Positions 2-4,124 of a stretch of 33,260 nt of DNA are shown here, piece by piece (position 1 is the stretch's first letter; each line of letters opens with the position of its first letter). The notes below the pieces were generated by a model. That model had not been told where the DNA came from. It ran no database searches and was given only the letters and a program-made list of their open reading frames with translations. The DNA lies in NCBI GenBank assembly GCA_025360965.1, contig JANYBC010000056.1, forward strand, positions 1-33,260, written 5' to 3'. Origin of the DNA: Anaeromyxobacter sp. (GTDB lineage Bacteria; Myxococcota; Myxococcia; Myxococcales; Anaeromyxobacteraceae). The position numbers and the translations under genes were made by a program.

Positions 2-76
2 TACAACCAGAAGAAGAAGCACAACCCTTCACTGAAGCCCGCGATTGCTGTTTCCGAATCGCGATCGGCCGTTTAG
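2..76 (+). CDS. C-terminal tail of an unidentified protein (partial at left edge)
   Basis: An open frame enters from the left edge and ends at TAG (74-76). It would give a 24-residue tail beginning YNQKKKHNPSLKP and ending SRSAV. The stretch is clearly less GC-rich than the rest of the window, and its lysine and asparagine codons look like real coding use rather than a GC-driven shadow frame. No domain can be recognised from so few residues. It could equally be the end of a non-coding transcript or a chance frame, so the call is weak. Confidence 0.3.
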   Translation, partial: YNQKKKHNPSLKPAIAVSESRSAV

Positions 77-249
77 TGACCGCCGAGGTGGGTGGATGGG
101 ACATTGTGCCGGACGGCCCGTTCGGGGGGCGTCGGGACGGCGTCCGGTTGGCGCCTGTACCGCGTCAGGTCGCCGCTAAGCCGGACGCGCCGCGGACGGG
201 TGGTAAACCGTGACCCGGGGGTGGGCCGGTTGCTAAGGTGGTGCCCACC
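77..249. other. Intergenic spacer upstream of the sigma factor, with a 7-base inverted repeat
   Basis: No gene is seen here. The arms CCGGACG (109-115) and CGTCCGG (141-147) form a 7-base inverted repeat with a 25-base loop, and CCGGACG recurs at 181-187. The hairpin could end transcription of the gene to the left, but it has no T-run. AAGGTGG (235-241) is a good ribosome binding site for the ATG at 250. No convincing -35/-10 pair was found, which would fit transcription by an alternative sigma factor but does not show it. Confidence 0.3.
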
Positions 250-873
250 ATGGCTCAGCAGTCCACGGCGGCGGGCAGTGCGGGGGCGGAAGCGCCGACC
301 CTCCCGGATCCATTGGAGATTCGGATCCGCGAATTACTCTCGGTCGGGGACACGAGGGGGGCGGCGACCGTGGCCATCAAGGGATATGGCCCCCACCTCC
401 TCCGCTTTCTCCGCGGCCTGCTCGGGACCGAGACCGAGGCCGAGGAAGCCTTCGCGCGGACCTCCGAGCGAATCTGGCGCGGCCTCCCTGAATTCCGGGG
501 CGAGGCGGTGACCCGGACCTGGTGCTTCAGCCTGGCTTGGAGCGCTGCGGCCGACCTGCGCAAGGAGGCCTGGAACCAGCGCGGGCGCCGGCTCGAGACC
601 GGCGAGGCGGCCGACCTGGCCGCCGCCGAAGGGACTGCCACCTGGCTGCGCCACGAGCGACTCCGGCTCTCCCTCGCCGCGCTCCGCGCCGCGCTGACGC
701 TGGAGGAGCAGGGGCTGCTGCAGCTGCGCATCGACCAGCGGCTCTCCTGGGGCGAGTGCGCCGAGGTGCTGGCGACCGAAGGCGCCGGGCCGTCGGCCGA
801 GTCGCTGATGAAGCGGTTCGAGCGGATCAAGTCGAAGCTCAGGGCGCTGGCCGAGGCCGGGGAGGCCGGGTGA
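250..873 (+). CDS. ECF-like RNA polymerase sigma factor
   Basis: Predicted 207-residue sigma-70 family protein of the small ECF type. Residues ~34-110 look like region 2 ([20 protein letters not shown], then a helical stretch ending ADLRKEAW). Residues ~135-202 look like region 4: a helix with [20 protein letters not shown], then [10 protein letters not shown] and a basic helix [13 protein letters not shown]. Region 3 is absent, as in ECF factors. ATG 250 is chosen over GTG 238/241 because AAGGTGG lies 8 bases upstream. The stop overlaps the GTG of the kinase gene (GTGA, 870-873), so the two are translationally coupled. Phosphorylation of an ECF factor by a genetically linked kinase is known from EcfP/PknT of Vibrio parahaemolyticus, and the same logic is plausible here (inference). 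No zinc-finger anti-sigma gene is adjacent. The region 2 sequence is divergent, so the exact ECF group is open. Confidence 0.72.
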
Positions 874-2570
874 GCCGCGAGCCGGGACAGACCGGCCCGG
901 GGACCCTCACCTCGCTCATCGAGCAGGTGGTGAAGGGGGCCGCGCCGGCCTCGCGCGAGGGCTCGTGGACCGACGGGATGCGGTCGGGCACGGTGATCGG
1001 CCGCTACGAGCTCTTGCGCGAGGCGGGGCGCGGCGGCTTCGGCGTGGTCTGGGAGGCGCGCGACCGGGACCTCGGCCGGACGGTCGCCTTCAAGGCGCTC
1101 AGGGCCCGAGGCGAGGCGGGGCGGGAGAAGCGGCTGCTGGCCGAGGCCGAGGTGGCGGCGCGGCTCTCGCACCCAAACATCGTCACGGTGCTCGACGTGG
1201 GGCGCAGCGACCAGGGGGTCTACCTGATCCAGGAGTTCCTGGCCGGTCACTCGCTGGCGCACCGGCTGGAGGGCGGGGCGCTGCCGCTGCGCGAGGCCCT
1301 GCAGATCGGGGTGGCGCTGGCGCGCGGGCTGGCCCACGCCCACGCCCACGGCGTGGTCCACCGGGACTTGAAGCCGGAGAACGTGCAGCTCTGCGACGAC
1401 GGGCAGGTGAAGCTGCTCGACCTCGGCATGGCGGCGGCGCTGGGGCGGCGCAAGCTGGAGGGCGGGACGCCGGCCTTCATGGCGCCGGAGCAGGCCGACG
1501 GGGCCCCGGAAGACGAGCGGACCGACGTCTACGCGCTGGGCGCGCTGCTCTTCAAGATGCTGACCGGGGCGGCGCCGGTGGAGGTCGACCCGCTCGGCCG
1601 GCCGCGCTCCATCTCGCGCGGGCTGGAAGTGTCGGCGGCGCCGGCGCTGGGGGCGCTGGTGGAGGCGACGCTGGCGAGAGCGCCGACCGACCGGCCGCGC
1701 GACGCCGGCGAGGTGCTCGAGGCGCTGCTGGAGATCGAGGCGGCGCTGCCGCGAGGCGAGGTGAGCCGGGCCCGGGCGGCGCGGGTGCGGCGCGGGCCGC
1801 GGGTTCGCTGGGCCATGGCCGGAGGGGTGGCAGGCCTGCTGCTGGCGGCGGCGGTGGGCTTGCCGGCGCAGGTCTGGCTACGGGGGGCACCGAGGCCAGA
1901 GGGGGCGATGGTGCTGGCGGCGTCGGCGACGCAGGTGCCCTGCACCTGGAAGACCGTGACCCGGAGCGACTTCGACGCGCCGGTGCCGGGGCTGCGCTGG
2001 CGCAACGGCGAGGCCGGCAAGCAGGAGATGGTGACCTCCGAGGGGCGAGGCGCCTGGCTGCAGGCGTCGGACTGGAACCAGCTGTTCGTCCCCGCTGGGG
2101 CGAGGCAGCCCGACGTCTTCGCGGTCACTGCCAACTTCTTCGCCCCTCCGATGCAGGGCCAGGCAATCGCGGTCGGCTTTCACGTCTATGGCGACCCGGG
2201 CGGCACCATGGACCATCGGTCGAGCGACCTGCATCACGGCCGCGGCATTGCCCTCATCGAAGCCTCGAACGGCGCCGTCCGCTACGAGTGGGGGATCATC
2301 GGCGGTCGAAACACCACCCAGGTGGTGGCCAAGGGGACCTTGCCTGGCACCATCTCCGGCAAATGGCACACGCTGCGGATCGAGGGATCGCGCTCCCGGT
2401 GCTGGACCCGGGCGCTGCTCGACGGCGAACCGGTGGCCTTCGAGGTCGGAGCCTGTGACCTGGAAGGCGGAGAGATCGTCCTCTCCGGGGCCGGGCGCGA
2501 GGCCTACGTCCCGGCCAACGTGCTCTGGCGCGACTTCAGCCTCTTCGAAGGCGAGCCGAGCTGCCAGTAG
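870..2570 (+). CDS. Transmembrane Ser/Thr protein kinase with a Cys-containing ectodomain
   Basis: 566-residue PknB/Hanks-type kinase. A Gly-rich loop ([11 protein letters not shown], ~53-63), the ATP-binding lysine in VAFKAL (K75), the catalytic loop HRDLKPEN (164-171), the metal motif DLG (184-186, in place of DFG) and APE (205-207) are all present, so the kinase should be active. Residues ~313-337 form one membrane segment. Residues 358-566 should lie outside the membrane and are homologous to the C-terminal half of the next gene: they begin CTW, contain [17 protein letters not shown] and LLDG, and end PSC. Four cysteines (358, 510, 529, 565) match it, suggesting two disulfides. The fold may be a jelly-roll/concanavalin-like domain, but that is a guess. 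GTG 870 overlaps the sigma-factor stop. The likely role is to sense an envelope signal and phosphorylate the co-encoded sigma factor. Confidence 0.9.
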
Positions 2571-2696
2571 GTGGGCCAGGCCGTCGTTGGGTCACGGGAC
2601 ACCGCAGCGCGTCAGCTTCCCTGGTCGAGGTCGTCAAACCATGAAGGGGCGCATCTCGTGCCCTGCGCCGCCTTCGGGCGGTAGTCGGGAGAGCAC

Positions 2697-4124
2697 ATGC
2701 GTCATGGCTGCTGGGTGGCACTGGTCGTCGCGGTCTCCTGGTTGGCTTCCGGCTGCTCCGAGACCAAGCCCGACTGCCTCGGCGCCGCGGTGGTCTGCGG
2801 TGGCACCTGCGCCGAGCTCAAGTCGGACAACCTGAACTGCGGCGCCTGCGGCACGGCCTGCGAGGCCGGCAAGGTCTGCTCCAACGGCGCCTGCGCGGTG
2901 ACCTGCGCCGCCGGCCAGGTCAACTGTGGCCGGAGCTGCATCGACCCGGGGACCGACCGGGGCCACTGCGGCGCCTCGGCGGCCTGCAGCGGCGCGGCGG
3001 CGGGCGTGGCCTGTGGCTCCGGCGAGGTCTGCAGCGCGGGGGCCTGCGTGTCGAGCTGTCTCGCCGGCCAGGTGCTCTGCGGCGGCACGTGCGTCGATCC
3101 CATGGCGGACCGGTCCTTCTGCGGCGCCTCGAGCGACTGTGTCGGCGCCAATGACGGTGTCGTCTGTGCCTCTGGCCAGGTCTGCTCGGCCGGCGCCTGC
3201 GCGCTCTCCTGCCAGCCCGGGCTGGTGAACTGCGGCGGCAAGTGCGTCGATCCGAAGACCGATCCAAACTACTGCGGCGCCACCTCGGCCGCTTGCACCG
3301 GCGGGACGGCCTGCGGGCCGAGCGCCGGCTGCTACCAGGGGCGTTGCGAGCCGCTCTGCGCGGCCGGGCAGGTGATGTGCAACGGGAACTGCATCGATCC
3401 GCTCACCGACGCGAGCTTCTGCGGCGCCAGCGGGTACTGCACCGGGGTGAGCGCCGGCAGCGTCTGCCAGGCAGGGACCGCCTGCCAGGCCGGGGGCTGC
3501 GTCTGCACCTGGACGCAGGTGCTGACCGCTCCGCTCACCGCCGCACCGGCAGGCGCCATCGTTCGCGGGAGTGGCTCAGCGGCCGCGGTCTACGGCCGGA
3601 CAGCGTGGTACCAGCCCTCGGACTGGAACGTGCTGCTCATTCCGCACGGGCTCGCCGCCTCCGACGCCGTCTTCGCGGTCGAGGCGGACGTCTACATCCC
3701 GGCTGTAGCGACCAGCTACAGGTACGGCGGCATCGCTCCGTTCACGACCAGTGCCACCGCCTCGGGGGCGCTCGGGACGTGCCAGTTCATGGGCGGCATC
3801 GAGGGGGCCCTCTTTGCGAGGGCCGGCGCGGGCTCGACCGTCGAGTGGTGGAACACCTCGGTCTGTGCGTGGTCGCTCCTGTCGAGCCAGTCCCTGAGCC
3901 CCTCACCGGCTGGAGCGTGGCACCGGCTGCGGATCGAAGGCGTCCGCACGACCTGCCGGTATCGGCTGCTGCTCGACGGTCAACTGCTCAGCACCTCGAC
4001 GGCGAGCTGTGATCCGGGCGGCACGTACCTGAGCCTCTTCGGTGGTGCGTTGGGTCAGGCCGGGCAGGTCGCCTGGTCCAACCTGGCCGTCTACAAGGGG
4101 GGCGCGCCTTCCTGCGTCCCGTAG
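2697..4124 (+). CDS. Cys-rich repeat lipoprotein sharing the kinase ectodomain
   Basis: 475-residue predicted lipoprotein. The signal peptide ends in the lipobox LASGC, with C20 as the lipidated residue. Residues ~27-270 hold five ~45-residue Cys-rich repeats with the pattern CxxGQVxCGGxCVDPxTDxxxCGAS followed by GqVCsaGaC. Such repeats are common in myxobacterial surface proteins. Residues 270-475 (CTW to PSC) are homologous to the ectodomain of the adjacent kinase, including PSDWNVLLIP, WHRLRIEG and LLDGQ, with four shared cysteines (270, 420, 438, 473) plus an extra pair (C362, C390). GGGAGAG (2687-2693) is the ribosome binding site. The gene lies 126 bases after the kinase, probably in the same transcript. 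It may compete with, present a ligand to, or pair with the kinase ectodomain. The ligand is unknown. Confidence 0.85.
   Translation: MRHGCWVALVVAVSWLASGCSETKPDCLGAAVVCGGTCAELKSDNLNCGACGTACEAGKVCSNGACAVTCAAGQVNCGRSCIDPGTDRGHCGASAACSGAAAGVACGSGEVCSAGACVSSCLAGQVLCGGTCVDPMADRSFCGASSDCVGANDGVVCASGQVCSAGACALSCQPGLVNCGGKCVDPKTDPNYCGATSAACTGGTACGPSAGCYQGRCEPLCAAGQVMCNGNCIDPLTDASFCGASGYCTGVSAGSVCQAGTACQAGGCVCTWTQVLTAPLTAAPAGAIVRGSGSAAAVYGRTAWYQPSDWNVLLIPHGLAASDAVFAVEADVYIPAVATSYRYGGIAPFTTSATASGALGTCQFMGGIEGALFARAGAGSTVEWWNTSVCAWSLLSSQSLSPSPAGAWHRLRIEGVRTTCRYRLLLDGQLLSTSTASCDPGGTYLSLFGGALGQAGQVAWSNLAVYKGGAPSCVP

Follow-up and report, generated by a model that had tools for sequence, protein, structure and literature searches.

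The sigma factor, Ser/Thr kinase and lipoprotein genes at the start of the window, meaning the whole 33,260-nucleotide stretch of DNA analyzed here, form a three-gene unit, larger than the kinase–lipoprotein pair first noted at this locus. The gene order is conserved in a second family of the same order, and the kinase ectodomain is homologous to the C-terminal domain of the lipoprotein, both being predicted to adopt the ConA-like lectin fold. On balance, we regard the unit as a sensory cassette comprising a lectin-like kinase sensor, modification of the sigma factor, and a lipoprotein that binds the same class of ligand. To our knowledge, few bacterial Ser/Thr kinases have a known sensor; a predicted lectin-type sensor that recurs on a lipoprotein of the same cassette gives a practical, testable way to approach the ligand.

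Organization of the locus

The window is contig C181; the draft genome to which it belongs, 3.8 Mb in size, is referred to below as the window genome. The contig starts at base 1 of the window, 237 bases upstream of the sigma gene. The features of the cassette are as follows.

238–873, forward strand: gene for an ECF-type sigma factor of 211 amino acids, first in the cassette (Pfam Sigma70_r2, E = 1e-6)
870–2570, forward strand: gene for a transmembrane Hanks-type Ser/Thr kinase of 566 amino acids, with a GTG start (Pfam Pkinase, E = 5.8e-44)
1005–1583, forward strand: kinase catalytic domain (Pfam match at residues 46–238; aligned to PknA 6b2q, E = 9.7e-35)
1809–1868, forward strand: predicted membrane helix, kinase residues 314–333 (top hydropathy window of the protein)
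1941–2564, forward strand: kinase ectodomain, predicted ConA-like (lectin-like), with Cys 358, 511, 529 and 565 (BLASTP, AlphaFold2, Foldseek)
2697–4124, forward strand: predicted lipoprotein gene, 475 amino acids (sequence; NF041328, E = 8.4e-35)
2775–3500, forward strand: Cys-rich Stig1-like stalk of the lipoprotein (Pfam Stig1, E = 5e-13, three stretches)
3504–4115, forward strand: C-terminal domain of the lipoprotein, predicted ConA-like (lectin-like), with six Cys (BLASTP, AlphaFold2, Foldseek)

The genes follow one another in the order sigma, kinase, lipoprotein, and the GTG start of the kinase overlaps the stop codon of the sigma gene as GTGA at 870–873. No anti-sigma gene lies between sigma and kinase, so the pair has the layout of an ECF sigma–Ser/Thr kinase module in the general sense. 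The sigma gene also matched the sigma70-ECF model TIGR02937 (E = 1.2e-7), under the model cut-off. No shared ECF-type promoter was recognized upstream of the sigma and lipoprotein genes by eye or in a sigma-70 scan, and an Rfam search returned no match.

The window genome contains a second copy of the 5′ part of the sigma gene at the edge of another contig (L093; C177:1–469, 80% identical to window positions 74–554). In this copy, a block of 60 bases lying about 105 bases upstream of the sigma start is nearly identical, and the stretch of about 110 bases that runs to the end of contig C177 is identical. It may represent either a true duplicate cassette or an assembly break caused by strain mixture.

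In alignment with PknA, the catalytic Lys, HRD, metal-binding Asp and APE elements of the kinase are all present, with DFG reading DLG, and by these residues the protein is classed as a Hanks-type Ser/Thr kinase. The predicted signal peptide, lipobox (ASGC, read from VALVVAVSWLASGC) and acceptor Cys20, followed by Ser at +2, identify the third product as a putative bacterial lipoprotein. Its N-terminal half scores 119.8 bits against the model for MXAN_6577-like cysteine-rich proteins (NF041328, cut-off 100), placing it in that family, and its Stig1-like stalk can be divided by eye into five repeat units.

Homology of the two domain copies

The two segments run from CTW to PSC, as the preliminary description had claimed, at kinase residues 358–565 and lipoprotein residues 270–473. 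They are homologous along their whole length: BLASTP aligned them over 220 columns at 30% identity (69.7 bits, E = 2e-19), bearing out the proposed relationship, and their local BLOSUM62 score is 195, whereas 1000 shuffles averaged 33.7 (sd 5.4) and never exceeded 70. In the pairwise alignment, the motifs described as common (SDWN.L..P, VFAV.A, WH.LRIEG and LLDG) match exactly, and the four cysteines reported as aligned do correspond (positions 1, 154, 172 and 208 of the kinase copy; 1, 151, 169 and 204 of the lipoprotein copy). Two further cysteines, at 93 and 121, occur in the lipoprotein copy.

At E ≤ 1e-3, a search of the window genome recovered these two copies and no others. A third match, on contig C186 (E = 0.07), falls in what looks from its sequence like an acyl-CoA synthetase gene and was dismissed as chance. 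The viral contigs searched yielded no relative.

Predicted fold and family identity

The domain could not be named when first noticed, and it is indeed unnamed in Pfam and NCBIfam, neither window copy matching a family in either library. The accompanying suggestion of an undescribed sensory fold did not hold, since structure prediction for each copy gave the same, known fold. AlphaFold2 models built from a small alignment of five sequences are all-beta, with pLDDT values of 86.8 (kinase copy) and 86.4 (lipoprotein copy), and both display the two-sheet beta jelly roll that defines ConA-like lectins and glucanases. All of the 50 Foldseek matches listed per copy against the PDB belong to ConA-like lectins, glucanases or carbohydrate-binding modules, or to other proteins that contain domains of this kind. 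E values are about 2e-7, TM scores normalized by query length reach 0.68, and identity is mostly 10–15%. The matches include the carbohydrate-recognition domains of Emp46p/Emp47p, galactocerebrosidase, legume lectins, galectins, CBM66 and beta-glucanases; CBM66, Emp46p/47p and galectins are among those of the lipoprotein copy. As modeled, then, the fold is already known, and the sequence family is one without a name in the libraries searched.

A profile search of the kind proposed earlier recovered the domain as a pair in other genomes. No curated sequence family of the superfamily matched above threshold for either window copy or for the 11 relatives scanned. One of these relatives gave a sub-threshold match to Laminin_G_3 (E = 0.0023; 18.5 bits, with the cut-off at 27.6), which spans exactly the W-H ... 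LDG segment flagged in the preliminary description. We set aside as chance a hit of the kinase copy to GYF_2 in Pfam (E = 0.08) and sequence matches to CD4/monobody entries in the PDB (E > 0.1).

The beta-glucanases among the structural matches raise the question of whether the domain is an active or degenerate glycan-cleaving enzyme of the GH16/ConA-like type instead of a binding domain. However, none of the 13 copies scanned contains the GH16 catalytic signature E-x-D-x(1-2)-E, which makes binding likelier than catalysis, and no glycosidase family was matched; we therefore consider the enzymatic reading highly improbable. ConA-like folds bind proteins and lipids as well as glycans.

Cysteine conservation and putative disulfides

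Cysteines of the domain are lost in pairs. The inner pair (154 and 172 of the kinase copy) is jointly missing from three copies in genomes G008 and G013, which keep the outer pair, and the outer pair (1 and 208) is jointly missing from the copy in G016. These two independent loss events suggest disulfide bonds 1–208 and 154–172. The extra pair of the lipoprotein copy (93 and 121 in window numbering) is present in the window and G029 lipoprotein copies and missing from that of G009. In the G016 lectin-like kinase (L023:3568–5724), bacterial Ig-like domains flank the domain on either side.

Distribution and history of the domain

A profile built from 11 copies found the domain in 8 of the 145 genomes of the order and in 10 of 195 genomes sampled across the phylum, one of the ten being weak. 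Kinase-borne copies occur in the window genome, G029, G009, G008, G013 (two) and G016; that of G009 is cut by the contig end, with the kinase part outside the contig. Copies on lipoproteins or other surface proteins occur in the window genome, G029, G009, G002 (two), G136 and G184. Thus, among these draft genomes, G008, G013 and G016 have a kinase copy and no lipoprotein copy found in the genome, while G136 and G184 have a lipoprotein copy and no kinase copy. The domain is carried on Stig1 repeats (window, G002), CarboxypepD_reg (G009), an unrecognized stalk (G029), collagen-flanked repeats (G136) and, in G184, also on a collagen-like surface protein.

Two of these copies have individual features. 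The second lectin-like kinase of G013 (contig C63, L022:3662–4902) is broken, its kinase domain being frame-split and partly missing, and its lectin-like domain is intact and in frame. G002, which belongs to the genus of the window, encodes a further Stig1-repeat protein that ends in this domain, the second of that genome and strongly diverged (contig C418, L035:1465–3339; E = 7.9e-18).

In the phylogenetic tree, a branch with support 93/87 separates the seven kinase copies from the rest, and 90% of bootstrap trees recover them as a single clade. The kinase copies of the window and of G029 pair with each other; the lipoprotein copies of the same two genomes fall in one weakly supported group and are mutually closest, at 48% identity. 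With the kinase copies united in this way, the simple duplication within the locus that had been assumed is not supported and a recent one is rejected; the lipoprotein copy of the window groups with other lipoprotein copies instead. The topology of the tree places the split between kinase and lipoprotein copies before the divergence of the window locus from the G029 locus.

Conservation of the cassette

In G029, a member of another family of the order, sigma, kinase and lipoprotein genes occur in identical order, with 60% identity for the sigma factor and 54% for the kinase. The G009 contig opens inside a kinase-type ectodomain, which is followed by a lipoprotein gene. The kinase and lipoprotein versions are therefore adjacent in three genomes, with differing surroundings; four neighboring genes in the window have no counterpart in the other loci, G029 included. 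Conversely, the lectin-like kinases of G008, G013 and G016 have no adjoining sigma or lipoprotein gene (the G008 contig ends just past the kinase, and no lipoprotein copy was found elsewhere in that genome). The kinase can thus do without both partners, so the association is conserved and not obligatory.

This pattern bears on two alternatives to a shared ligand. In one, the two proteins bind each other, the lectin-like domain of the lipoprotein docking on the kinase ectodomain as ligand, inhibitor or co-receptor. Adjacent, co-conserved genes with paralogous domains would fit such docking, as would the variation in stalk length and type beneath a terminal domain that is kept, but the genomes with a kinase copy alone or a lipoprotein copy alone argue against it, and we judge it unlikely. 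The other treats the lipoprotein gene as a hitchhiking neighbor or as one that the sigma factor targets, and the shared domain as a reused myxobacterial C-terminal binding module with no functional tie to kinase sensing. The domain does end several unrelated surface proteins, namely those with collagen-like sequence in G136 and G184 and the Stig1 protein of G002; yet it is too rare in the order for the adjacency of its two versions in three genomes with different surroundings to fit easily with casual reuse, and we give this explanation a low probability as well.

Relatives of the window sigma factor are more widespread than the domain, occurring in 65 of the 145 genomes with up to seven matches per genome. 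Of 20 such regions read, several have an adjoining Ser/Thr kinase and most have none. The window genome has another ECF sigma–Ser/Thr kinase pair, with a WD40-looking ectodomain (L068, C177:6300–12492). TPR-looking ectodomains occur in the window genome (contig C184), G005 and G134 (L070, L073 and L087), and a Kelch-looking one in G029 (L086); the labels WD40, TPR and Kelch come from reading the sequences and correspond to no library match. Because related sigma genes adjoin kinases with these different ectodomains, the ectodomain of the sigma–kinase module looks swappable, the lectin-like form being one version, and a clade of myxobacterial ECF sigma factors appears to adjoin kinases whose sensors are interchangeable. 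We considered and rejected a rule that a lipoprotein with the ectodomain of the kinase accompanies every sigma–kinase pair, as no such lipoprotein was present at the loci read whose kinases look WD40-, TPR- or Kelch-like.

Proposed mechanism

In the sensory cassette that we favor, the ConA-like kinase ectodomain, predicted to be stapled by disulfides and to lie outside the inner membrane, would act as the sensor. Judged from the fold, its ligand would most likely be a glycan or a cell-envelope polymer. Contact with this ligand would activate the kinase, leading to modification of the co-encoded sigma factor, presumably by phosphorylation; the modified sigma factor would then redirect transcription, probably including that of the cassette. 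Domain homology and co-conservation lead us to infer that the lipoprotein, with its paralogous domain on a variable stalk, probably binds the same ligand class at the outer membrane, where it may serve as an adhesin, a ligand concentrator or an accessory receptor. By analogy, the cassette likely works like an ECF–kinase module, as exemplified by ECF43 sigma factors, which are activated by phosphorylation from adjacent Hanks kinases in the EcfP/PknT and EcfK/PknS systems (PMC8999054, PMC13147305). Several observations weigh against this model: the acidic EAEE sequence of the sigma factor, the three genomes whose lectin-like kinase stands apart from both partners, the lack of a kinase next to most related sigma genes read, the absence of a recognizable common promoter, and the ability of ConA-like folds to bind proteins and lipids.

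A more elaborate, and doubtful, version is a two-tier receptor in which the outer-membrane lipoprotein and the inner-membrane kinase use their paralogous lectin-like domains to bind the same ligand or each other, the lipoprotein setting the threshold of the sigma–kinase switch as a co-receptor, ligand carrier or decoy. If true, this would be a paired-lectin arrangement that we have not found described for bacterial Ser/Thr kinases.

Comparison with known systems

The cassette resembles the ECF43 modules EcfP–PknT of Vibrio parahaemolyticus and EcfK–PknS of Xanthomonas citri in that an ECF sigma gene adjoins the gene of a membrane-spanning Ser/Thr kinase that has its sensor outside the cytoplasm, and no anti-sigma gene intervenes. 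Unlike in these modules, the ectodomain is predicted to be lectin-like, and a lipoprotein with a paralogous ectodomain follows. The defining feature of ECF43 is that region 2.2 has an uncharged QTTA/STTA sequence where the acidic DAED motif would otherwise stand (PMC8999054, PMC13147305). The window and G029 sigma factors both read EAEE at this position, aligned by eye to the DAED consensus, which by this motif places them outside ECF43. Since the acidic residues are kept, the known phospho-switch is not directly transferable; a review notes that other kinase-linked ECF groups also keep them and may work differently.

With PASTA-type kinases (PknB/Stk1), the window kinase shares a Hanks kinase domain, a single membrane helix and an extracytoplasmic sensor, and its kinase domain is closest to PknA among solved structures; it differs from them in having no PASTA repeats, scoring 198 against a cut-off of 450 for NF033483. 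The predicted jelly roll and the W-H ... LDG segment recall the ConA-like superfamily (Emp46p/Emp47p, galectins, CBM66, Laminin_G_3), whereas the window domain, at about 10–15% identity, is set apart from the solved members by its two putative disulfides, one of which would staple the N and C termini together. The lipoprotein, finally, matches MXAN_6577-like (NF041328)/Stig1 lipoproteins in its N-terminal half and differs from them in presenting a lectin-like C-terminal domain on its Cys-rich repeats.
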